From a virus, in the IMG/VR virus record IMGVR_UViG_3300045141_000101, positions 1 through 40,792 of that record: 40,792 nt of DNA. One strand, 5' to 3'. The notes under the pieces are model-generated. The model was not told the origin of the DNA. It made no database searches and saw only the letters and a program-made list of their open reading frames with translations. Positions 16,870 to 29,882 of the stretch are shown here, piece after piece; position 1 is the first letter of the stretch, and each line of letters opens with the position of its first letter. Position numbers and translations under genes: made by a program.

Positions 16870-17172
16870 GTGGTCGAGGTCGCGACCAGTTGGGTCAGGC
16901 AAAACCTCGGTATCGCGGCAACGCTCGTCGCCCTCGCCGGCACGATCCTCGGTGGCGTCGCGGCGGCCAGCACATGGCTTGCCTCGGTGCATCACCTGGA
17001 GCGGCGCGTTGACGTGCTGCGGGCTGAGGTGAACGCCATGCGGGCGACGATGGACCAGAACCGCGTGCTGGTCGGTGATGTCAGACGCGGCCTGGAGGCG
17101 ACGGACGCGACGGTCAAGGAAGGCATCGCGCGGCTGGAAGAGCGGATCAGGGCGAGAGATGCCACGCGCTAA
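16870..17172 (+). CDS. Membrane-anchored coiled-coil protein
   Basis: A 100-residue protein from GTG 16870. One transmembrane helix lies at 12-36 (LGIAATLVALAGTILGGVAA), followed by a 60-residue coiled coil (HLERRVDVLRAEVNAMRATM ... GIARLEERI). The layout suits a holin or spanin accessory protein, or an inner-membrane factor. It overlaps the portal gene by 14 bases. Confidence 0.55.
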   Translation: MVEVATSWVRQNLGIAATLVALAGTILGGVAAASTWLASVHHLERRVDVLRAEVNAMRATMDQNRVLVGDVRRGLEATDATVKEGIARLEERIRARDATR

Positions 17173-19372
17173 AGACAGCGACGAGGAAATCCTGAAGGAG
17201 GCCAAGGCCCGCTTCGAGCGGTGCGTTGGTTGGGAGAGCGCGTGGCGCACCCGCGCCTTGTTCGATACCCGTTTCGCCAACGGCGACAGTCAGAACGGTT
17301 GGCAATGGTATTCCAACGCCGGCACCATGACGGATCGCGGCGAGCGGCCGACGCTCACGTACAATCAAGTTAGACAGCATAATTTGCAAGTCATTAACGA
17401 TGCGAGACAAAACAAAGCACAAATTAAGTGTACTCCGGTCGGCGGTCACGCATCGTATGAAGCCGCCCAGGTGTTCAGCGGCATCATCCGCCGCATCGAG
17501 TATGTCAGCAAGGCGGTCGATGCTTACAGCACCGCGACATACCATCAGGTCGAGAGTGGTATTGGGTATGTCCGCGTCGAGACGGATTACGTGGACGAGA
17601 ACAGTTTCGACCTCGATCTGTTCATCCGCCGCGTGCCAGATCCTCGCAGCGTCTACATGGACCCGGATTGTAAGGCGTATGACAAGTCGGACGCCAATTT
17701 CGCGTTCGTGTTCGAGGACATCCCGCGCGATCGTTACGAGGAGGAATATGGGAAAGAGGACAACGTCGCGCCGGCCACGCTGGAGCACAGCGACGGCTGG
17801 AACGATAAGGATCATGTGCGGATCGCGGAGTATTGGAGGCGGAACCTCAACAACGAGACGCTGCACCGGCTCCAGGATGGGACCGTGGTGCGCGACAGCG
17901 ATATCCCGGCGGAGTTTCGCGATCAGGTCAAGGCGATGATCGTCCAGAGCCGCGACGTGGCGGAGCCGGAGATCGAGTGGTTCAAACTGGCGGGCAACAA
18001 GATCATCGACCGCGAGCAATGGCTGGGCAAGTACATCCCGATTGTGCCGTTCATCGGCGAAGAGACGGTGATCGAGGGCGAGATGGACCGCAAGGGCCAC
18101 ACCCGCGCCCAGATCGATGCGCAAAGGATATATAATTACTGGGCCTCGGCCGCCGTTGAACAGGTCGCGTTGCAGACCAAGACGCCCTATGTGGCGCGTG
18201 CCGACGCGATCGAGGGCCGAACGGAGCAGTGGGCGACGGCGAATGTCAAAAACTGGTCGGTATTGGTCTATAACGGCATTGACGAGGCGGGAAATCCGAT
18301 CCCGCCGCCGTCGCGGGTCGAGCCGCCTACGATGGCCCAGGCCTACATCCAAGGCATGACCATCGCGCGGCAGGATCTGATGAGCGTGACCGGTCAATAT
18401 CAGGCTGAACTGGGCATGCCGAGCAACGAGCGGTCGGGAATCGCCATCCAGCAGCGGCAGCGCCAGGGCGACACGGCGACTTATCACTACATCGACAATC
18501 AGGCGAAGGGCATACGGCAAATCGGTCGCATTTTGCTCGATCTGATACCGAAAATATACGACACGCGGCGCGTGGCGATGACGTTGGCCGAGGATGGCAC
18601 CGAAAACAAGGTGATGATCGCGCCGGACATGCCCGACGCGCATCAATACATCGGCCAGCAGCCGAACGGGGCGCCTCCGGGTCCGATTTCACCCGCCGAG
18701 GCGCAGAAACAGCAGGAAGATCCGGCACAGCCTGACCCAGCGATCATATTCAACCCAAATGTCGGGACTTATGACGTCGAGGCGGATGTCGGGCCGAGTT
18801 ATGGGACGCAGCGGCAGGAGGCGGCCAACGCTTTCAGTCAGATCATGCAACAAAACCCGGCCGCGTTTCAGATCGTCGGCGATTTCTGGGCCGCGAACTC
18901 GGATTTCCCCGGTGCGGACGAATTGGCCGAGCGATTGAAGCGGGGATTGCCCCCGAACTACAAGGCGGGGCCGGACCCGCAGGTCATGGCTATCAGCCAG
19001 CAGGCCCAGCAGGCCCAGCAGCAGGCGAAGGACATGCTGGGCAAGGCTGACGCGGAGATCGCATCGCTAAAGGCCCAGTTGGTTCACGCACAAGAGCAGG
19101 CCAAGGACAAATCGGCCGAGATCGAGATCAAGGACTATCAGGCTGAGACGGATCGATTGAAGGCGGTCGGCGCGATCGATCCGTTGGCGCTTCAGGCGAT
19201 CGTGCGTCAGATGGTGTCCGACATGCTTCAAACCGAGATCCATCCGGTGCTACAGCGGCACGCGGCGGACGAGAGCGAGCTACAGGCCACGCTGGCGCCG
19301 CCCGTGCCCGTGAACGGGGCGGACGGTCAGGCGCCGCCTGGACCGGCTCCAGGGGGCGGCGTTGGCCCATAG
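17159..19372 (+). CDS. P22-type portal protein
   Basis: A 737-residue protein. The region to about residue 480 matches P22-like portals (WYSNAGTMTDRGERPTLTYN, QVESGIGYVRVETDY, FIRRVPDPRSVYMDPDCKAY). The C-terminal part is a long Gln/Ala-rich helix (QQAQQAQQQAKDMLGKADAE) like the barrel of P22 portal, followed by a Pro/Gly tail. The start ATG 17159 is preferred over upstream in-frame codons because of GGGCGAGAG directly before it. The portal is the dodecameric DNA channel, docking site for TerL and for the tail accessory factors encoded at 24302 and 28359. Confidence 0.9.
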   Translation: MPRAKDSDEEILKEAKARFERCVGWESAWRTRALFDTRFANGDSQNGWQWYSNAGTMTDRGERPTLTYNQVRQHNLQVINDARQNKAQIKCTPVGGHASYEAAQVFSGIIRRIEYVSKAVDAYSTATYHQVESGIGYVRVETDYVDENSFDLDLFIRRVPDPRSVYMDPDCKAYDKSDANFAFVFEDIPRDRYEEEYGKEDNVAPATLEHSDGWNDKDHVRIAEYWRRNLNNETLHRLQDGTVVRDSDIPAEFRDQVKAMIVQSRDVAEPEIEWFKLAGNKIIDREQWLGKYIPIVPFIGEETVIEGEMDRKGHTRAQIDAQRIYNYWASAAVEQVALQTKTPYVARADAIEGRTEQWATANVKNWSVLVYNGIDEAGNPIPPPSRVEPPTMAQAYIQGMTIARQDLMSVTGQYQAELGMPSNERSGIAIQQRQRQGDTATYHYIDNQAKGIRQIGRILLDLIPKIYDTRRVAMTLAEDGTENKVMIAPDMPDAHQYIGQQPNGAPPGPISPAEAQKQQEDPAQPDPAIIFNPNVGTYDVEADVGPSYGTQRQEAANAFSQIMQQNPAAFQIVGDFWAANSDFPGADELAERLKRGLPPNYKAGPDPQVMAISQQAQQAQQQAKDMLGKADAEIASLKAQLVHAQEQAKDKSAEIEIKDYQAETDRLKAVGAIDPLALQAIVRQMVSDMLQTEIHPVLQRHAADESELQATLAPPVPVNGADGQAPPGPAPGGGVGP

Positions 19373-20231: not shown

Positions 20232-21002
20232 ATGAGCGAAACCAACACCAACGCCGACGGCGTTACCATCACCAGCCAGCCGCCATCGCCCGAAGCGCCG
20301 CCAGAGTCCACGCCAGCGCCCGCCGAGGCCACGGAGCAGACCGAGGAAGAGGGCCAACGCCCCGATCGCGACACCGAGGGCCGCCGTGTCGCCCAGGTCC
20401 GCGCCAGGCTGGCGGCCGCCGAGCGGGAGCGGGACGCGCTGCGCGCCGAGGCGGAGTTCTATCGGCAACGCGCGCAACCAGTGGCGCCGGAGGACGAGAC
20501 GCCGGAGCAACGCTACCAGCGGGAGCGCGGCGCCATGCGTCAGGAGGTCGAGGCGCAGATCCGCACCGAAACATTCCACCAGCAGGGCGCCACGCAATAC
20601 GGCGACTGGAAACAGCGGTGCGACGACCTCGTGGCGATGGGTGCCGATGCCGGGTTCGCGCAACTCCTCGTCGAGATGCCGGGTGGCGAGGGGGTCAGGG
20701 TCGCCGCCGCGCTGGCCGCCGATCCCGACGCGGTCGAGCGCATCGCGAACCTCCGCTCCGAGCGGGCGCGGGCGGTGGCTCTGGGTAAGTATGCCGCCAC
20801 CATCGAGGACACGACACATGATCGATCCCGGCCGAACGGCGTCAACGGAGCGGCCGCCGCGCCAGCCGTGACCAGGGCACCGGCTCCGGTGCGCCCGGTG
20901 ACGGGTCGCGCATCGCCGCAATTCAACGAATACACGGCGACGGCGCAGCAACTTGCCGATTTCTATATGAAACAATCGATGGATCGGCAGACGAGGCGCT
21001 GA
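20232..21002 (+). CDS. Scaffolding protein
   Basis: A 256-residue acidic, helical protein. The N-terminal 55 residues are a Pro/Glu/Thr-rich disordered tail, followed by a coiled coil (AQVRARLAAAERERDALRAE, AEFYRQRAQ) and further helices. A short basic C-terminus ends MKQSMDRQTRR. P22-type scaffolds bind coat protein with a basic C-terminal helix-turn-helix and are released before packaging. Position between portal and coat, length and composition all agree. There is no sequence motif that proves it. Confidence 0.7.
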   Translation: MSETNTNADGVTITSQPPSPEAPPESTPAPAEATEQTEEEGQRPDRDTEGRRVAQVRARLAAAERERDALRAEAEFYRQRAQPVAPEDETPEQRYQRERGAMRQEVEAQIRTETFHQQGATQYGDWKQRCDDLVAMGADAGFAQLLVEMPGGEGVRVAAALAADPDAVERIANLRSERARAVALGKYAATIEDTTHDRSRPNGVNGAAAAPAVTRAPAPVRPVTGRASPQFNEYTATAQQLADFYMKQSMDRQTRR

Positions 21003-21203: not shown

Positions 21204-21299
21204 ATGCCCGCCACAAATACTCTGTTGACTATCAACATGATTACCGCGAAGGCTCTGGCTATACTCCATCAAAAATGTAATTTCATTGGCTCCATCAAT
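21204..21299 (+). CDS. Major coat protein, exon 1
   Basis: The first 32 codons of a P22-type coat protein (MPATNTLLTINMITAKALAI ... FIGSIN), with RBS AAGGA at 21190-21194. The frame meets TAA at 21300, inside the intron. Joining codon 32 (AAT, 21297-21299) to CGA at 22061 restores the run GSIN-RQYDDSFAQSGAKIG, which matches the usual start of this coat family. The exon end CATCAAT pairs with the intron guide GTTGATG at 21309-21315, leaving the conserved U-G wobble at the splice site. Confidence 0.8.
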
Positions 21300-22060
21300 T
21301 AATACTTGGTTGATGTAAAACCCCGTTAACTGCTGGAACACCCTTAGAGCCATGTTCGCCACAGCGCAGCCGGAAACAGCCAACGCGACGGCCGAAAAGC
21401 AATATGGATTGGGCAATCAGCATCCAAGCCGCTTGCATATGCTTGCAACTTTAAGCATGATGGTGCGGAAGGATCAACGACTAGCCGAAAGGCGTAGGGC
21501 CAAGCGGCCCGAAATGCGGGGGCTATACGTGTCACGACCGACTGGGCCATTGGCTCCGCGCTTCGCGGAGAAGGTCAGGCCGCACAAAAGCGGTTGCCAT
21601 ACCTGGATCGGCACCATCAAGTCCAACGGGTATGGTGTGATCAATGTCAATGGTCGCATCACCAACGCCTATCGTGTTGCCTGGGAATTGGCCAAAGGCC
21701 CGATCCCTGATGGCATGTGGGTGCTCCACACTTGTGACAACCGGCGTTGTGTCAATCCTGATCATCTTTGGTTGGGAACGCAGCAGGACAACATTGGCGA
21801 CATGGTCGGAAAACTTCGACACAACCATGGCGCCAGGAATGCCCGCTCGAAATTGACGGCGAAGCAAGTGCGGTTAATTCGACTAATGAGTGGAACACAA
21901 GCTGAAATCGCCGCGTGCTTCGGTGTTTCAGACGCCACGATTTGTCGAGTTCTCTCTGGTCGGTTTTGGAAACACGTACAGTAAGATATAGTCTGCTCTA
22001 CCGGGAAACCGGTAGCCGCGAAAGCGGGCCAGGGCATAGCTCCCCTGGTCGAACATATGG
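21300..22060 (+). ncRNA. Group I intron in coat gene (IA2-like)
   Basis: A 761-nt self-splicing intron. P1 forms between exon bases 21293-21299 and guide 21309-21315, with the splice after U21299. Core signatures are GGGCAATCAGCATCCAAGCC (21411-21430, P4-P6 side), TCAACGACTAGCCGAAAGG (21474-21492, P3/P7 side) and GATATAGTCTGCTCT (21985-21999, P7/P3 3' side). The last is a string I recall from the T4 nrdD (sunY) intron. P9-type hairpins follow: CTACCGG-GAAA-CCGGTAG at 21998-22015, and CCAGGG/CCCTGG near 22029-22048. The intron ends in G22060. An HNH gene is looped out between the core halves. Confidence 0.85.
21514..21984 (+). CDS. Intron-encoded HNH homing endonuclease
   Basis: A 156-residue protein (ATG 21514). 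Residues 28-100 are an HNH_3-type domain: CHTWIGTIKSNGYGVINVNG, then VLHTCDNRRCVNPDHLWLGT with the His and Cys residues of the metal site. Residues 110-156 hold a helix-turn-helix ending ATICRVLSGRFWKHV for DNA recognition. The frame is open from 21352, but that stretch lies in the intron core, so the start after the P3/P7 element is preferred. The stop TAA (21982-21984) touches GATATAGTC, so the gene fits exactly into a peripheral loop. It would cut intronless coat genes of co-infecting phages and drive intron homing. Confidence 0.8.
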   Translation: MRGLYVSRPTGPLAPRFAEKVRPHKSGCHTWIGTIKSNGYGVINVNGRITNAYRVAWELAKGPIPDGMWVLHTCDNRRCVNPDHLWLGTQQDNIGDMVGKLRHNHGARNARSKLTAKQVRLIRLMSGTQAEIAACFGVSDATICRVLSGRFWKHVQ

Positions 22061-23170
22061 CGACAATACGACGACAGCTTCGCGCAAAGCGGTGCCAAGA
22101 TCGGCAGCACGCTCCGCATCCGCCTGCCGGTGCAATACACCGTCAGCACGACGCCCGCGCTGTCGTTGCAGAACACGGTTGAAACCCAGATCAGCCTACC
22201 GATCACCAATCAGTATCACGTGGACTTCAGCTTCTCCTCGGCTGAACTCACGCTGTCGATTGACGACTTCACAGCGCGCTACATCGAGCCAGCCATCGCG
22301 GTTCTCGCGGCCCAGATCGAGGCGGCGGTCATCGGCATGATGTGGCCGACCGTATGGAACCAGGTCGGCACGCCGGGTGTCGCGCAGTCGTTCAAGAACG
22401 TCCTCGTCGCCCGCAAGATGCTGCTCGACAACCTGACGCCGCAAAGCAAGCAGTGGCAGCTTCGCATCAACACACAGGACAACGTGGACCTCGTGGACAG
22501 CCTCAAGGGCCTGTTCCAACAGAGCACGCAAATCGCGCGGCAATACACCGATGGCGTCATGGGCCTCGCGGGCGGCTTCGAATGGGCCGAGAACACCCAC
22601 CTGACCACGCAAACGCGCGGCGCCGAGAACGCGGCTTACACGACGGCGATCGTGCTCAATCAGAACACGGGCGCCACCCTCGCCGTGATCACCGGAGCCG
22701 GCGCGGGCAACGCGGGCGACGTGTTCACCATCGCCGGCGTCTACCGCGTGCATCCCGAAACCAAAGCCAACTCGGGTGTGCTCCAGCAGTTCGTTCTGAC
22801 CGGCGCTTACGCGGGCGGCGGCGGCAACATGGCGATCGCGCCGGCCATCAACGCCGTGGTTGGCAGCCCGCAACAGAACGTCGCCATCCCCGTGGCCAAC
22901 GCGACGGCGGGGTTGACGTTCATGGGAACGGCGAGCGCGGCGACCGGGCTGAGCCTCGCGTACAATCCAGACGCTTTTACGTTCGCCACAGCCGATCTTG
23001 TCATGCCCGGCGGGGTCGATATGGCTTCACGCGTGGTAAAGGACGGTATCTCGATGAGGGCAGTGCGTCAATATAGTATATCAGACGATACAATGCCAAT
23101 AAGGATTGATGTGTTGTGGGGAGCCGTGGCCTTAAGGCCACAACTCGCAGTCAGGCTCGCTGCGAATTAG
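22061..23170 (+). CDS. Major coat protein, exon 2 (P22 gp5-like)
   Basis: Encodes residues 33-401 of the coat protein after splicing. It contains the typical P22 coat-family blocks RQYDDSFAQSGAKIGSTLRI, ELTLSIDDFTARYIEPAIAV and VDSLKGLFQQSTQIARQYTD. It ends with a beta-rich C-terminal region (ISMRAVRQYSISDDTMPIRI). The protein would have the HK97 fold with an inserted domain and form the icosahedral shell with the scaffold (20232-21002). Without the intron one would call a truncated gene from GTG 22130; the 23 codons before that are clearly coding. Confidence 0.88.
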   Translation, partial: RQYDDSFAQSGAKIGSTLRIRLPVQYTVSTTPALSLQNTVETQISLPITNQYHVDFSFSSAELTLSIDDFTARYIEPAIAVLAAQIEAAVIGMMWPTVWNQVGTPGVAQSFKNVLVARKMLLDNLTPQSKQWQLRINTQDNVDLVDSLKGLFQQSTQIARQYTDGVMGLAGGFEWAENTHLTTQTRGAENAAYTTAIVLNQNTGATLAVITGAGAGNAGDVFTIAGVYRVHPETKANSGVLQQFVLTGAYAGGGGNMAIAPAINAVVGSPQQNVAIPVANATAGLTFMGTASAATGLSLAYNPDAFTFATADLVMPGGVDMASRVVKDGISMRAVRQYSISDDTMPIRIDVLWGAVALRPQLAVRLAAN

Positions 23171-23220
23171 CAACGAATAAACCGACATGGTTGCTGTTTG
23201 CTACGAGGTCAGTTATCATA

Positions 23221-23243
23221 CCCCCGCCTTTAACAGGAGGGGG
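23221..23243 (+). promoter_or_regulatory. Hairpin sequestering RBS of HNH gene
   Basis: CCCCC-G-CCT, loop TTAAC, AGG-A-GGGGG: an eight-pair stem with one G-A mismatch. Its 3' arm AGGAGGGGG is the ribosome binding site of the HNH gene at 23250, so in the folded mRNA translation should be low. Similar hairpins restrain free-standing endonuclease genes in T4-type phages. Confidence 0.65.
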
Positions 23244-23249
23244 ATTGAT

Positions 23250-23834
23250 ATGATTTGCACGATCGAAGGGTGCGCCGAAACCGCGCGAGGGCACGGCTAT
23301 TGCTCGCGGCACTACACGCAATGGCGTCGGCATGGTGATCCGCTACTGATGAAGCGGCTTTATCATAAGGGGATGCCGGCGGAAGAGCGTTTCAAGGCTT
23401 TTGTTCAGAAAGGATCTGGGCCGAAAGCCTGCTGGGAATGGATCGGAGGAAAAATCTCCACTGGCTACGGGATGTTTCACCCCGCGCCCAAACAATCGAT
23501 ACTCGCGCACCGCTATGCCTATGAACAACAGCGCGGGCCAATACCGACAGGCCAGTTCTGCTTACATCATTGCGATAACAGATCATGTGTCAATCCCAGA
23601 CACTTGTTCTGCGGCACCCAGCAAGCGAACGTCGATGACATGATCAACAAAGGCCGTGATCACAAACGCGGCCTGGCGGGGGCTGAAAACCATCAGGCGA
23701 AAATCACCGAGGAAATCGTGCGAGAAATACGCGCATCTCCAACGACAGCCAAGATCCTCGCAAAACGGTATGGCGTGTCGGCGGGTCAGATTTACGCCAT
23801 CAAACAGCGCCGCACCTGGAAACACATCGAGTAA
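23250..23834 (+). CDS. Free-standing HNH homing endonuclease
   Basis: A 194-residue protein. Residues 3-30 carry a zinc-type N-terminal motif (CTIEGCAETARGHGYCSRHY) common in phage HNH proteins. The HNH_3 domain is at about 60-130 (CWEWIGGKISTGYGMF, CLHHCDNRSCVNPRHLFCGT). A helix-turn-helix with AAKRYG-like recognition helix ends in RRTWKHIE. It lies between the intact coat gene and the next head gene and is not inside an intron or intein. Its RBS is very strong but lies in a hairpin (23221-23243). It is of the same family as the intron enzyme and the minus-strand HNH genes. Confidence 0.8.
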   Translation: MICTIEGCAETARGHGYCSRHYTQWRRHGDPLLMKRLYHKGMPAEERFKAFVQKGSGPKACWEWIGGKISTGYGMFHPAPKQSILAHRYAYEQQRGPIPTGQFCLHHCDNRSCVNPRHLFCGTQQANVDDMINKGRDHKRGLAGAENHQAKITEEIVREIRASPTTAKILAKRYGVSAGQIYAIKQRRTWKHIE

Positions 23835-24301: not shown

Positions 24302-26263
24302 ATGACGATAGCGAACGATATAATATTCTTGTCACTTCGTAACGGATCGATTAATGGGGTGGGCCAGACCCCGATGCCGGATGATGTCAACGACAGCTTC
24401 AGGGTTCTTAACGCGATGATCGCGGAGTGGAACCTGGAACGGTTGGTCCAGGTCAATCGGGAGCCGGTGCCGCCATTCCCCGATCTGACGACCGACGTGC
24501 CGTACTGGACGCCGTTCGAGCATGTGCTTCTGACGACGATGGCGGTGCGGCTGCGGCAGATCTACTCGCTACCGCCGGTTCAATTGGACGTGCAACTGGC
24601 CGTCTCGGCGCTGGCGGCGTGGAGCGCGATCAATCTGCAAAAGACGCCACCCCCAACCGTCGCGGCCGATGACGGCACGGGCTTTGGCGTCATCTTCCTG
24701 GCACTGCGCGCGGCCGGGCGCGTGGCCGACAAACAAGGCGTGCTGGAAACCTCACAGGATGTCACCGACGCCCACAGCATCCTGAACGAGATGCTGGACG
24801 AGTGGAACCGGGAGCGGTCGGTCAAGGTCATCCCAGGCACGTTGCCGACTGTCACCGATCTGTCGGCCGCCTTGTCTTTGTCGGCCGGCCAGAAGAACGC
24901 CGTCGTGCTCGGCCTCGCGGTTCGCCTGCGGGATTGGTTCAGCGCCGAGATCCCAAAACCGTTGCTGGACCGGGCGGAACGCGCGCTCGCCCTCATCCAG
25001 GCCATCAATCTGCAACAAAACCCGGCACCGTCGATCGCGCATGACGACGGCACCGGCTACGGCATCCTGTTCCTGGCGCTGCGGGCGGCGGGCCGGGTCA
25101 ATGACGGCCAGGGCATCACGGTCGGTTCGCAGGACGTTTCCGACGCCGCGTCGCTGATGAACGAGATGCTGGACGAATGGCGGCGGGCGCGGACGGTGCG
25201 GGTCATCCCCGGCACCATACCCACCATTTCCAATCTTTCGGCTCCGGTGACGCTCGACCCCGGCATGCGTAACGCCATCGTGCTGAACCTCGCGGTCAGG
25301 CTGCGGGATGCGTTCGGCGCCGAGGTGCCGAAACAACTGCTCGACCGCGCCGCCCTGGCCTTGGAGTTGGTGCAGGCGATCAACCAGCAGCAGACGCCCA
25401 AGGTGTGGACCGGTGCGGCCGAGACGGTGGGCGAGGCGCTGTTCCTGGCGCTGCGGATGGCGGGGCGGATAAACGATCAGCAGAGCGTGTCGGAGGCGTC
25501 CAAGGACGTTTCGGATGCGTTCACCTTGCTCATGGCCATGATGGCGCAATGGCAGCGCAAGCGGTGGTTGGTCTGGTCGGAGCAGGAAATCGCACTGATC
25601 TCCACCGGGGACGTTTCCTACACGATCGGCCGGCATCAGCAATTCAACACGGCGCGGCCGGACAAGATCCACGCGGCCTTCGTGCGGCTCAAGGGTCATG
25701 GGGGCTTCGGCACGGGCGGCGCCACTCTGGCTGAGCAATTGCCGTTTCCGTTGGGCGCGCAACCAACGAGCGGAAGCGGCGGCGGCAACATGGTGGACAT
25801 CCCGCTGGCCATCATCGAGAGCCGCGAGGACTGGTCGCTGGTTTCCATCAAAGACCTCAAATCGATCCCCTCGGCGGTGTTCTATGACAGCGCGTTTCCG
25901 GTTGGTCTGGTGTATTTCTGGCCGGTGCCGATCGCCAACGATTACGAACTGCACCTCGTGCTCAAGATCACGCTGCCAGCCTACGAAGGCCTGGACGATC
26001 CGCTGAACATGCCGCCGGAATACACCGCCGCGATCATCGACAATCTCGCCTGCCGCGTCATCGTGGCCTCGGGTGGCCAGATATCCCGCGAACTCGCCGG
26101 GCAGGCCAGGGCGTCCCTGGAGGTCATCAAGATGACCAACGCCCAGATACCCCTCCTGGGCATGCCGGCGGCCCTCACGCACCACCGGGGCGACGTCTCG
26201 TCGTGGGTTGGGCGTGGCCTGAACCAGGCGTGGACGACCGGTGGCGGCAGCGTCCTGAGTTAA
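24302..26263 (+). CDS. P22 gp4-like tail accessory factor, four domain copies
   Basis: A 653-residue protein. Residues about 376-653 form a normal P22 tail accessory factor (gp4-like): FLALRMAGRINDQQSVSEAS, then VSYTIGRHQQFNTARPDKIH, and a C-terminal helix. In front are three more copies of the N-terminal helical part at about 3-119, 125-243 and 249-367. Each reads IFLALRAAGRV ... LNEMLDEWxRxR ... VIPGTxPT ... AVRLRDxF ... LxxIQAINLQQ. Copies 2 and 3 are most alike. Usual family length is about 160-240 residues. gp4 binds the portal after packaging and keeps DNA in. Extra copies could enlarge the adaptor ring or recruit spikes (inference). Confidence 0.8.
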   Translation: MTIANDIIFLSLRNGSINGVGQTPMPDDVNDSFRVLNAMIAEWNLERLVQVNREPVPPFPDLTTDVPYWTPFEHVLLTTMAVRLRQIYSLPPVQLDVQLAVSALAAWSAINLQKTPPPTVAADDGTGFGVIFLALRAAGRVADKQGVLETSQDVTDAHSILNEMLDEWNRERSVKVIPGTLPTVTDLSAALSLSAGQKNAVVLGLAVRLRDWFSAEIPKPLLDRAERALALIQAINLQQNPAPSIAHDDGTGYGILFLALRAAGRVNDGQGITVGSQDVSDAASLMNEMLDEWRRARTVRVIPGTIPTISNLSAPVTLDPGMRNAIVLNLAVRLRDAFGAEVPKQLLDRAALALELVQAINQQQTPKVWTGAAETVGEALFLALRMAGRINDQQSVSEASKDVSDAFTLLMAMMAQWQRKRWLVWSEQEIALISTGDVSYTIGRHQQFNTARPDKIHAAFVRLKGHGGFGTGGATLAEQLPFPLGAQPTSGSGGGNMVDIPLAIIESREDWSLVSIKDLKSIPSAVFYDSAFPVGLVYFWPVPIANDYELHLVLKITLPAYEGLDDPLNMPPEYTAAIIDNLACRVIVASGGQISRELAGQARASLEVIKMTNAQIPLLGMPAALTHHRGDVSSWVGRGLNQAWTTGGGSVLS

Positions 26264-26276
26264 TGGAGATCCGATC

Positions 26277-26507
26277 ATGAGCGCATCACACGGCGGCCTC
26301 GCGCGGCTGCCCATTCGTCCGCTGCCGACAATGGACACGATGTCCACGGACACCGGCTACCCGTGGGTCGATGGCGACATTCTCTACGCCGCCGACCTCA
26401 ACGCGGCGTTCCTGCCGGCGGACGGGCGGCTGTTGCCGACCAGCGATGCGGGCCTGGCCTCGGGCGCTTACTGGAACAATGGAACCTTCGTATGCATCGT
26501 CCCCTGA
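26277..26507 (+). CDS. Short spike adaptor with YPW anchor motif
   Basis: A 76-residue protein with RBS TGGAG. Residues 28-44 (YPWVDGDILYAADLNAAF) match the N-terminus of the tailspike at 14403 (YPWSEGDALFASELNAAI). The end (LASGAYWNNGTFVCIVP) is a common closing block of short fibre proteins. It overlaps the following spike gene by 16 bases. It probably attaches that spike, or itself, to the tail hub (inference). Confidence 0.6.
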   Translation: MSASHGGLARLPIRPLPTMDTMSTDTGYPWVDGDILYAADLNAAFLPADGRLLPTSDAGLASGAYWNNGTFVCIVP

Positions 26508-28285
26508 TCCTCGGCCTCCTGTTCTCGCTGCTGGCGGGCACGGCCAACGCCGCCTGCCCCGGCAATCCGACGAGTTGCGGCAACCCGATGCAGGCCCAGA
26601 CGTCCAACTCGGTGATGTATGCCGCTGCGTATGGCGTGAAGGCGGACGGCACGACGTCGGATGACGTGGCGCTCCATGCCGCCGTGGCCGCCTGCTCGGC
26701 CGAGGGCACCACGCTGATCCTGCCGCCGGGGATGATCCGTCTGACCGGCGCCGGCCCGTCGAGCCAGTTGTTCAACTGCCGGCTACAAGGCGCGGGGCCG
26801 CAGGCGTGGGCCGGCAACAACGGTCAACCCGTCGGCGGAACCACGTTTCAGGTCGAAAGCCGCACGGTCTCTCCCTTCATCGTCGGCAACAGCGCGACCA
26901 TCGCCGGAGTGAATTTCTGGTGGCCGAACCAGGACGGCACGACGACCTACGCGCCGGCGATCACCGACGGTGGCGCGAACACGGTCGTCGCCGGTTTTCG
27001 CATGGAGGACGTGACCGCGATCAATGCTTACGACTTCCTGGCGCAGGACGCGCACAGCATCGGCTGGGGCAACGCGCACTTCGTAAACGTGGCCTGTTTC
27101 GCGGTCAGGGACTGCATGCGGTTCAGCAACATCGGCGACGGGTTCGTGTTCTCGAATTACCGCAGCAGCGCGGGGCCGTGGCTGATGAGTTGCAATTATG
27201 GCGACACGTGCAAGACCTCGCTCGGCAAGGCGATGCTCACCGCCGTGGCGTTTCATTTCGTCGCCAAGATCAACAACGACAGCAGCACGGGTGGCGGGTT
27301 CATCAACATCGCCATTGGCTGCGGATCACAACTTGGCGCCGGAACCGGCATCCTGGTCGATGCCGGGGCGACCGTGTCCGAGAGCATGTTCTGCGCCACC
27401 TGGGACGGGCTCGCCACGATCCTCGACGCCAGCGCATCCGGCGCCAACTGGCTTGAGGGAAACGTGTTCATGGGCAACAACGCCGGGTGCTACCGGGCAT
27501 TTCAGCAGCCCGACGACGCGGCGCACCGGGAGAACAAGCCCTGTTTCAGGATGGGCGCCACGGGCGAGTTGGCGCTGACCAACTTCAGCAGCTCCGGCAG
27601 CCAGGGCGACTTCATCACCACGGCTGGCGCGGCCGTGAAGGTCATCGGCGGCAAGTCGGTGAACATCGGCCAACGGCGGGATGGCGGTGACTATTATCAG
27701 ATCCACGTCACGGGCGGCACGCCCTACATCATGGTGCAGAACGTGCTGTTCGGCGGCATGGATTGCGGCGCGGAGCCAGTGAACTGCCATCATGTGCACG
27801 GGATCACGGTGGCCCCAGGGGCCACGCCCTACGCCATCAAGATCGAGAATAACTGGTTCAGTGCTCTGGAAGACGCGATCGTCTTTCCTTCGATTTCGGG
27901 TATCACGACGGTGCTTGGCAACAGTGGCGACACGACGCATGGCACCAGCGCGGTGAGCATCACCGGCGCATTCGGTGTGATGTACAACAATAACATCTGG
28001 GACAAGCCGCCAAAGGCGGTCTGTGCATCGTGTGGTGCCGGGGGTACCGCTCTGGGGACGATCAAGGGCGCCATCAGCATGGGAACCGGCGCCGGAACGA
28101 GTGCCACGGTCACATTGCCATTCGCGCCTGAAGCCAGTTCGACCGGATATCAGTATTGCGCGGCGATGGTCGTCAATTCAGCCGCCAACGCGGGATGCTC
28201 CGTCAGCGGCAAGACAATGAGCCTGAACTTTACCACCGACGTGTCCAGCAACGCCGTCACGTTCGATGCCACGGCGATGCAGTAG
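26492..28285 (+). CDS. Beta-helix spike-like protein with signal peptide
   Basis: A 597-residue protein from ATG 26492. Residues 1-21 are a classical Sec signal (HR, then PLILGLLFSLLAG, cleavage after ANA). The mature part opens with a pectate-lyase-type start (AAAYGVKADGTTSDDVALHA) and continues as right-handed beta-helix. It contains more than a dozen Cys residues (for example NCRLQG, CFAVRDCM, CNYGDTC, CASCGAGG), consistent with folding outside the cytoplasm. Export is odd for a virion spike assembled in the cytoplasm. The alternatives are a secreted glycan-modifying enzyme or a spike gene captured from a secreted lyase. Confidence 0.7.
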   Translation: MHRPLILGLLFSLLAGTANAACPGNPTSCGNPMQAQTSNSVMYAAAYGVKADGTTSDDVALHAAVAACSAEGTTLILPPGMIRLTGAGPSSQLFNCRLQGAGPQAWAGNNGQPVGGTTFQVESRTVSPFIVGNSATIAGVNFWWPNQDGTTTYAPAITDGGANTVVAGFRMEDVTAINAYDFLAQDAHSIGWGNAHFVNVACFAVRDCMRFSNIGDGFVFSNYRSSAGPWLMSCNYGDTCKTSLGKAMLTAVAFHFVAKINNDSSTGGGFINIAIGCGSQLGAGTGILVDAGATVSESMFCATWDGLATILDASASGANWLEGNVFMGNNAGCYRAFQQPDDAAHRENKPCFRMGATGELALTNFSSSGSQGDFITTAGAAVKVIGGKSVNIGQRRDGGDYYQIHVTGGTPYIMVQNVLFGGMDCGAEPVNCHHVHGITVAPGATPYAIKIENNWFSALEDAIVFPSISGITTVLGNSGDTTHGTSAVSITGAFGVMYNNNIWDKPPKAVCASCGAGGTALGTIKGAISMGTGAGTSATVTLPFAPEASSTGYQYCAAMVVNSAANAGCSVSGKTMSLNFTTDVSSNAVTFDATAMQ

Positions 28286-28299
28286 GGGAGCGGGCAACA

Positions 28300-28362
28300 A
28301 TGAGCACGACCACAGGCACATTCCCCGGCATCCGCATCTTGCCGAGGTTCGGACTGATATGA
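28300..28362 (+). CDS. 20-residue leader ORF before gp10-like gene
   Basis: ATG 28300 follows a good RBS (GGGGAGCGGGCAACA) and encodes MSTTTGTFPGIRILPRFGLI. The stop overlaps the start of the gp10-like gene (ATATGA, 28359-28362), so it could serve to deliver ribosomes to that gene. It may be expressed as a peptide or only as a coupling element. Confidence 0.4.
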   Translation: MSTTTGTFPGIRILPRFGLI

Positions 28363-29882
28363 AAGTCGCGCTCACTGGTGGGGCCTATGAAGCCCGTAGC
28401 GTCGTCGCTTCAGCTCAGCGCTGCGTGAATTTATACGTGGAACCCCTCCCCCAGGAGCAGGGCGAGCCGATGCCCGACGGTCACTACCCGACACCCGGCA
28501 GCCGCATCCTCTGGTCGGTCGGCACCGGCCCGGTCAGGGCGATCCACGAGTGCGCCAACGGTGCGATCATCATGGTCGAGGCCTCCATCGTCTACGCGAT
28601 CGAGCCGGGCAGTTGGGTGCCGACACTGCTCGGCAATATCACGGCGGGACTGACGACGCCGGTCAGCATCGCCGACAACGGCTTCATCGCGGTGATCGTC
28701 GATGGCTCGGCCAACGGCTGGACGGTTGGCCTCGATTTCCTGACGTTCCAGCCGGTTTCCAGTCCACAGTTCTATGGCGGAGACCGGGTGGACTACGTCG
28801 ATACTTTCTTCGTGTTCAATCAGCCGAACACGATCTATTGGTACATCTCCGATCCGTTCGACCCGGCCAATCCTTACGATCTCAACTTCACCCTGGACTG
28901 GCTGGCCGGCAAGGCGGGTCACAGCGACCGGATACAAACCCTGATCGTCGCCAAGCGTGACGTCTGGCTGCTGGGCGCCAAAACAACGGAGATATGGGCC
29001 AACACCGGAGGTGATGGGACGGCGGGCGCGTTCCCATTCACCGCGCAGTCGGAGGTCATCATCGATCACGGCTGCGTCGCGAAATACAGCGCCGCGACCT
29101 ACGACAACAGCGTCTTCTGGCTGGGCGCCAACCGCGCCGGCCAGGGTATCGTGCTCATGGGATCACTTTATTCCGCGAAACGGATCTCAACCTACGCCAT
29201 CGAGGCGGAGATCGCGAAATACGCGACGACCGCCGAGGAGCGCATCTCGGACGCCATCGGCTTTTGCTACAGCCTCGCCGGCCACGCGTTCTATGTCCTG
29301 GTATTTCCCACGGCGGATAAGACCTGGGTCTATGACATCACCACCGGCCATTGGCATCAGTGGATGTGGCTCGACACCAACGGTGACGAGCACCGGCACC
29401 GGGCGAATTGTTACGCTCTCGTGGCTGGCGTGCCGGTGGTCGGCGACTGGCAGAACGGCCACGTCCTCGCGCTCGACCTGACGGTCTACACAGACGTTGC
29501 CGGTGGACCGATCAAACGGGTGCGCTCGTTCCCGCACATGGTCGCCGACGCGGACAGGCTCTTCTTCCGCCAGTTCATCGCCGACTTCGAGACCGGCACC
29601 TCACCAAACCCCGGTGTGATGCCGGGACCGGCAAACACGATTTCGCTGCGGTGGAGCAACGATCGCGGACATACCTGGGGCAACCCGGTCACCCAGTCGA
29701 TCGGCGAGACCGGCGAATACCTGACATCGCTCCAGTGGCAGCGCTTAGGACTTTCCAGAGACAGGGTCTGGGAATTGTCGTGGTCGGTACCGATGCCGAC
29801 CATACTGCAAGGCTGCTTTGTCGATGCGACGCGCGGGGACGAGGCGCCCCCGCCATCGGCGCAACAGGAGCAGGCCGCGTGA
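28359..29882 (+). CDS. P22 gp10-like packaged DNA stabilisation protein
   Basis: A 507-residue protein starting MKVALTGGAYEARSVVASAQ, followed by CVNLYVEPLP, the usual opening of the gp10/tail-hub family. The rest is repeated beta blades (VDTFFVFNQPNTIYWYISDP, VYDITTGHWHQWMW). In P22, gp10 forms a ring below gp4 and carries the tailspikes and needle. Its position after the gp4-like gene and before the needle-like gene agrees. The start at 28359 is supported by the coupled leader ORF; an upstream in-frame start at 28266 lies in the previous gene. Confidence 0.85.
   Translation: MKVALTGGAYEARSVVASAQRCVNLYVEPLPQEQGEPMPDGHYPTPGSRILWSVGTGPVRAIHECANGAIIMVEASIVYAIEPGSWVPTLLGNITAGLTTPVSIADNGFIAVIVDGSANGWTVGLDFLTFQPVSSPQFYGGDRVDYVDTFFVFNQPNTIYWYISDPFDPANPYDLNFTLDWLAGKAGHSDRIQTLIVAKRDVWLLGAKTTEIWANTGGDGTAGAFPFTAQSEVIIDHGCVAKYSAATYDNSVFWLGANRAGQGIVLMGSLYSAKRISTYAIEAEIAKYATTAEERISDAIGFCYSLAGHAFYVLVFPTADKTWVYDITTGHWHQWMWLDTNGDEHRHRANCYALVAGVPVVGDWQNGHVLALDLTVYTDVAGGPIKRVRSFPHMVADADRLFFRQFIADFETGTSPNPGVMPGPANTISLRWSNDRGHTWGNPVTQSIGETGEYLTSLQWQRLGLSRDRVWELSWSVPMPTILQGCFVDATRGDEAPPPSAQQEQAA

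Follow-up and report, generated by a model that had tools for sequence, protein, structure and literature searches.

A head-to-tail adaptor with four tandem cores in a P22-like phage neck, with relatives of one to five units

RESULTS

A large adaptor gene in a P22-like neck module

The window, by which we mean the whole stretch of DNA that was analyzed, is a 40.8-kb IMG/VR virus record. The open reading frame (ORF) at positions 24302-26263, from an uncultivated virus of bacteria, is open throughout and encodes a protein of 653 amino acids. It lies between the gene for a P22-type coat protein and that for the head closure protein Hc3, a homologue of P22 gp10, in a genome that also has a P22-like portal gene, which is the gene order of an Ad3 adaptor. 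The window contains only one adaptor gene, and ejection-type proteins are also encoded. By the classification of Lopes et al. (2014; PMC4362835), the neck is of type 3 (P22-like). The features of the neck module and of the adaptor are as follows.

17075..19372, + strand: P22-like portal protein, the expected partner of the adaptor (PF16510, 2.5e-160)
20232-21002: scaffold protein
21204-23170: P22-type coat protein
24302..26263, + strand: four-unit head-to-tail adaptor (Ad3, P22 gp4-like), 653 amino acids
24317..24652, + strand: unit R1 ("first" class), residues 6-117
24341..24385, + strand: α1-α2 loop of R1 (NGSINGVGQTPMPDD), also present in single-unit adaptors but missing from the other units
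24668..25027, + strand: unit R2 ("middle" class), residues 123-242
25040..25399, + strand: unit R3 ("pre-last" class), residues 247-366
25436..25603, + strand: unit R4 (last), helices 1 and 2, residues 379-434
25604..25957, + strand: insert of R4, about 118 residues
25958..26146, + strand: unit R4, helices 3 and 4, residues 553-615
26147..26260, + strand: C-terminal tail (RGDVSSWxGRGLxxAW), restricted to the last unit and to single-unit adaptors
28266..29882, + strand: head closure protein Hc3 (P22 gp10-like), the expected nozzle partner (phrog_578, 2.2e-88)

The genes next to the adaptor have peculiarities of their own. A stretch that resembles a group I intron (RF00028 at 21290-22015; 48.7 bits versus a gathering threshold of 50, E value of 5.5e-11) splits the coat gene after codon 32, and inside this stretch lies an HNH endonuclease ORF (21352-21984). 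Wherever both coat parts were found in a relative, its coat gene is uninterrupted. Another HNH endonuclease ORF (23187-23834) comes directly after the coat gene. The large ORF between the adaptor and Hc3 genes (26363-28285) matched nothing in PHROG or Pfam; in the related contig L003, its homologue is only 43% identical, while the neighbors of that homologue are over 90% identical. This pattern suggests that the ORF may be a fast-changing spike or fiber module.

The adaptor consists of four homologous units

The 653-residue protein is made of four homologous units, R1 to R4. A search profile built from R1 to R3 of the window protein scored these three units at 179 to 213 bits and found R4 in two pieces, corresponding to its helices 1-2 and 3-4. 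Smith-Waterman comparisons against shuffled sequences gave z-scores of 24 for R1-R2, 21.5 for R1-R3, 72 for R2-R3 (which are 66% identical), 18 for R3-R4, and 7 for the distant pair R1-R4; R3 compared with the C-terminal part of R4 gave 9.8. The repeat period is 122 to 124 residues, and the units are joined by linkers of about 10 to 14 residues whose sequence (QQ.PAP.IA.DDGTGYG) is conserved, not variable. R1 to R3 are whole helical adaptor cores, each without the insert and without the C-terminal tail, and in R4 each of them matches the N-terminal as well as the C-terminal helices. R4 has the same helical core plus the insert and the tail, and measures about 283 residues, compared to roughly 240 to 290 residues for single-unit relatives. 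In a profile-profile alignment, the unit matched the last unit over 116 columns, with the insert skipped (98.98%, E value of 6e-18). We propose that the insert of R4 is the counterpart of the fiber-dock domain of the T7 gp11 and SU10 adaptors. Together, these comparisons show that the adaptor gene grew as its helical core was duplicated in tandem within the gene.

The PHROG family phrog_637 ("head-tail adaptor Ad3") matches the whole protein (9.5e-22) and 14 of 16 units taken alone, and PF11650 scored 20.7 bits against the protein, just under its cut-off of 21. P22 gp4 and Sf6 gp7 were the only PDB sequences matched by the unit profile, each weakly (E values of 0.5 to 0.9). By hhalign, the unit aligned with these two proteins at 90% over 97 columns, which is the whole gp4 core; at the level of profiles, the repeats appear to share the gp4 core. 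The match to PF24175, the family of the T7 gp11 and SU10 adaptors with a fiber dock, was weak (19.3 bits versus a cut-off of 27) and spanned residues 498-586. Since the protein belongs to the Ad3 profile and lies in the Ad3 gene order but has four four-helix cores in one chain instead of one, three of them without the insert, it is a variant of the Ad3 adaptor and not a plain member. The conserved C-terminal tail is present only after the last unit.

An earlier first-pass annotation of this DNA had described a tandem gp4-like adaptor of four copies and 653 residues, with a period of about 122 residues. The unit profile, the phrog_637 match, the shuffle z-scores, and the measured period all agree with that description. 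The same annotation had taken the three extra copies for N-terminal helical domains; their number stands, but they are complete cores.

The tandem architecture is not an assembly error

Because the window is an uncultivated metagenome contig, an artefact of assembly or annotation had to be considered, and the first-pass annotation had itself raised an assembly error. However, the units of the window protein differ from one another at saturated synonymous sites (dS of 1.0 to 1.3). The same architecture, with the same unit order, was found in independent IMG/VR contigs from several metagenomes, and L005, L006, and L007, which come from three datasets, encode an adaptor that is nearly identical across the protein. 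The recurrence in several metagenomes, together with the saturated synonymous sites, therefore excludes an assembly error independently of read coverage, and an artefact of either kind has next to no probability. Between orthologous units of relatives, dN/dS ranges from 0.02 to 0.27, and each unit is under purifying selection.

The adaptors of L005 and L007 are nearly identical except in the first 35 or so residues, as if an N-terminal segment had been exchanged by recombination.

Unit number ranges from one to five among relatives

We scanned IMG/VR with the last-unit profile and the unit profile and, among proteins whose 5′ end was intact, counted 67 distinct ones. One unit was present in 34 proteins, two in 13, three in 11, four in 6, and five in 3 (L004, L008, and L010). 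The search for other multi-copy gp4 proteins that had been recommended thus returned relatives with two, three, four, and five units. The accompanying remark that no such multi-copy version was known holds for the named phages searched, among which we found only single-unit relatives and no tandem multi-core adaptor, but it fails for uncultivated relatives, in which the multi-unit form is common: of the proteins whose 5′ end is intact, 33 distinct ones have two or more units. Near-complete contigs with a one-unit adaptor had a single adaptor gene, and separate unit genes were not found in them. Cellular genomes searched with the unit profile gave no match; with the last-unit profile, they gave only prophage adaptors, none with extra units.

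Unit number changes while the neighboring genes barely do. Coats 95 to 99% identical to that of the window accompany adaptors of two units (L021, L024, L026, and L074), three units (L025), four units (L002 and L003), and five units (L004). L024, with two units, has a portal 95% identical to that of the window, and the gp10-like protein of L004, with five units, is 96% identical over the stretch present. On the tree of last units, unit number changed at least 12 times, and grouping all multi-unit proteins in one clade is compatible with the data (AU p of 0.69). Independent origins of the multi-unit form were considered and set aside: the free tree separates L107/L109, yet the test did not reject a single clade, which scored better. 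A recent duplication was likewise rejected as the source of the five-unit protein of L004, whose units 2 and 3 differ at saturated synonymous sites (dS of 1.45, dN of 0.10).

Some relatives show further particularities. In L009 (1385-3322), the third unit resembles a last unit but has no insert. It is an apparent intermediate between a last and an internal unit, as expected if units arise by copying of the adaptor and loss of the insert. In the L002 contig (L134), a stretch of about 0.9 kb splits the portal gene after about codon 28; in the L026 contig (L135), one of about 1 kb splits it near codons 357-370. Both are possibly introns or insertions. Hc3 frames with large insertions, at query residues of about 165 and 455 and with open frames of up to 1206 amino acids, were found in the contigs of L062, L063, L060, L071, L068, L020, L024, and L025.

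First and last units share out the features of single-unit adaptors

In a tree of 66 units, the groups corresponded to first, middle, and pre-last units across proteins, not to the individual proteins, and the lone extra unit of two-unit proteins fell in the first class. The clustering of units by position implies that the positions have distinct roles. Judged from these classes, growth appears to take place between first and last units that stay fixed.

The α1-α2 loop of single-unit relatives reads G(I/V)NGVGQTP. Of the units in multi-unit proteins, the first retains this motif, whereas all others, the last included, have GRxxDxQ. The mean identity of this loop to single-unit adaptors was 58% for first units and 18% for last units, the first being higher in 33 of 33 proteins. 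Conversely, the end of helix 2 with the entry to the insert was 19% identical in first units and 54% in last units, with the last higher in all 33. The α2-α3 junction (11% versus 57%) and the end of helix 4 with the tail (21% versus 57%) also favored the last unit, while the α3-α4 loop favored the first only modestly (27% versus 17%). In an up-down four-helix bundle, the α1-α2 and α3-α4 loops lie on one face, and the N terminus, the α2-α3 junction, and the C terminus lie on the opposite face. The profile of the first-versus-last difference correlated with height along the bundle (r = -0.54; 4 of 118 rotations were as low), and height explained it better than a single breakpoint did (R2 of 0.30 versus 0.16), which we take as supporting evidence and not as a blind test, since heights were assigned after part of the pattern had been seen. 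The ancestral surfaces look as if they had been divided between the first and the last copy, a subfunctionalization within one polypeptide.

DISCUSSION

A model for the neck

The α1-α2 loop of T7 gp11 contacts the nozzle, and its fiber dock and C-terminal helix contact the portal (PMC6702177). The SU10 adaptor follows the same plan, with its helix bundles meeting the nozzle platform (PMC9509320). About 12 copies of P22 gp4 bind per portal (12:12), and the C-terminal tail of gp4 lies between subunits of the portal (PMC5290284). In the window protein, R1 keeps the nozzle-type loop and the last unit keeps the insert and the tail, which therefore fits a serial stacking of the units. The occurrence of one to five copies in relatives suggests that the neck is lengthened by adding domains to one protein.

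On this basis, we lean toward a neck in which 12 chains form stacked coaxial layers, with R4 facing the portal and R1 facing the nozzle. As with single-unit adaptors, each of the 12 chains would pair with one of the 12 portal subunits, and the last unit would occupy the canonical portal site via its insert and C-terminal tail. Beneath it, R1 to R3 would add coaxial 12-fold layers, and the docking surface for the gp10-like nozzle would belong to the first unit. Gain or loss of middle units would then step the length of the neck and leave the portal-facing and nozzle-facing surfaces untouched, and this would account for the observed drift of unit number from one to five among close relatives. 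Between the two roles that the first-pass annotation had offered for the extra copies, extension of the neck would be the better fit. The broader proposal is a podovirus neck whose length depends on how many adaptor cores one polypeptide contains, with up to five stacked 12-fold layers (60 domains), a nozzle-facing first, interchangeable middle, and portal-facing last unit, and gain and loss between close relatives. To this we give an even chance.

The T7 fiber sits between a dock on the adaptor and a dock on the nozzle. By analogy, a stack would pull these two docks apart, which may speak against stacking, as may the adaptor of phage R4C, whose N-terminal domain lies by the capsid and not along the tail (PMC10276861).

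Alternative arrangements

The contact between the N-terminal domain of the R4C adaptor and the capsid (PMC10276861) also provides a precedent for a collar or skirt. Here, 12 chains would sit on the portal via the last unit, which would still contact the nozzle, and the N-terminal units would project outward, either as a string of beads or as another concentric ring that abuts the capsid or the fibers. The length of the linkers permits outward units, and outward decorations would easily tolerate drift in copy number. However, the linker sequence is conserved rather than variable, and the nozzle-type loop is lost in the last unit and kept in the first, which is unexpected if the last unit met the nozzle. 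We consider a collar unlikely, although it deserves to be kept in mind. Duplication could also have added no layers at all, the upstream units serving as spacers, amplifying the cell-wall hydrolase activity proposed for gp4, or being cut off. PDB records do label P22 gp4 a "peptidoglycan hydrolase," but every unit is under strong purifying selection and the units fall into position-specific classes, which makes this reading improbable.

The presence of a whole gp4-type core in each unit is what would allow one chain to fill several of the 12 portal sites, so that three four-unit chains would complete the ring, as the first-pass annotation had suggested. That idea is contradicted by the data: five-unit versions exist (L004, L008, and L010), and 12 is not divisible by 5; the portal-type features, namely the insert and the C-terminal tail, are restricted to the last unit; the units are specialized by position; and portals up to 95% identical pair with both two-unit and four-unit adaptors. 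We regard such a pseudo-dodecamer as very improbable.

Comparison with known adaptors

The structurally studied short-tailed phages (P22, T7, and SU10 among them) have one adaptor ring, leading from the 12-fold portal to the 6-fold nozzle. As in P22 gp4 and Sf6 gp7 (PF11650, phrog_637), each unit of the window protein matches the whole gp4 core, and the genes follow the order coat, adaptor, and gp10-like protein. Whereas P22 gp4 has one core and no insert, the window protein has three insert-less cores and then one with an insert in the same chain. The last unit, with its core split by an insert and followed by a tail, is like the T7 gp11 and SU10 adaptors, which combine a helix bundle, a fiber dock, and an embracing C terminus; those adaptors, however, have one core per chain instead of four, and the PF24175 match is below the cut-off. 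The single-unit adaptors of Pseudomonas phage PAE2 (gp7), Acetobacter phage phiAX1, IMG/VR contigs, and prophages of Gluconobacter, Asaia, Paraburkholderia, and Achromobacter are homologous to the last unit and have the same neighbors.

With capsids and portals that are similar, and sometimes almost identical, across the natural series of one to five cores, the specification of the portal-adaptor-nozzle interfaces becomes directly testable, as does the question whether rings stack at will. The series also offers a test case for the lengthening of a short tail by domain duplication, not by new genes or a tape measure. No published tandem adaptor was found in searches of the open-access PMC literature. 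The closest precedent is a set of eight phages with two separate Ad3 genes and one Hc3 (Lopes et al. 2014; PMC4362835). Like the window, these phages have more than one Ad3 core per virus; theirs are two copies in separate genes, whereas those of the window group are fused in one chain of up to five cores.
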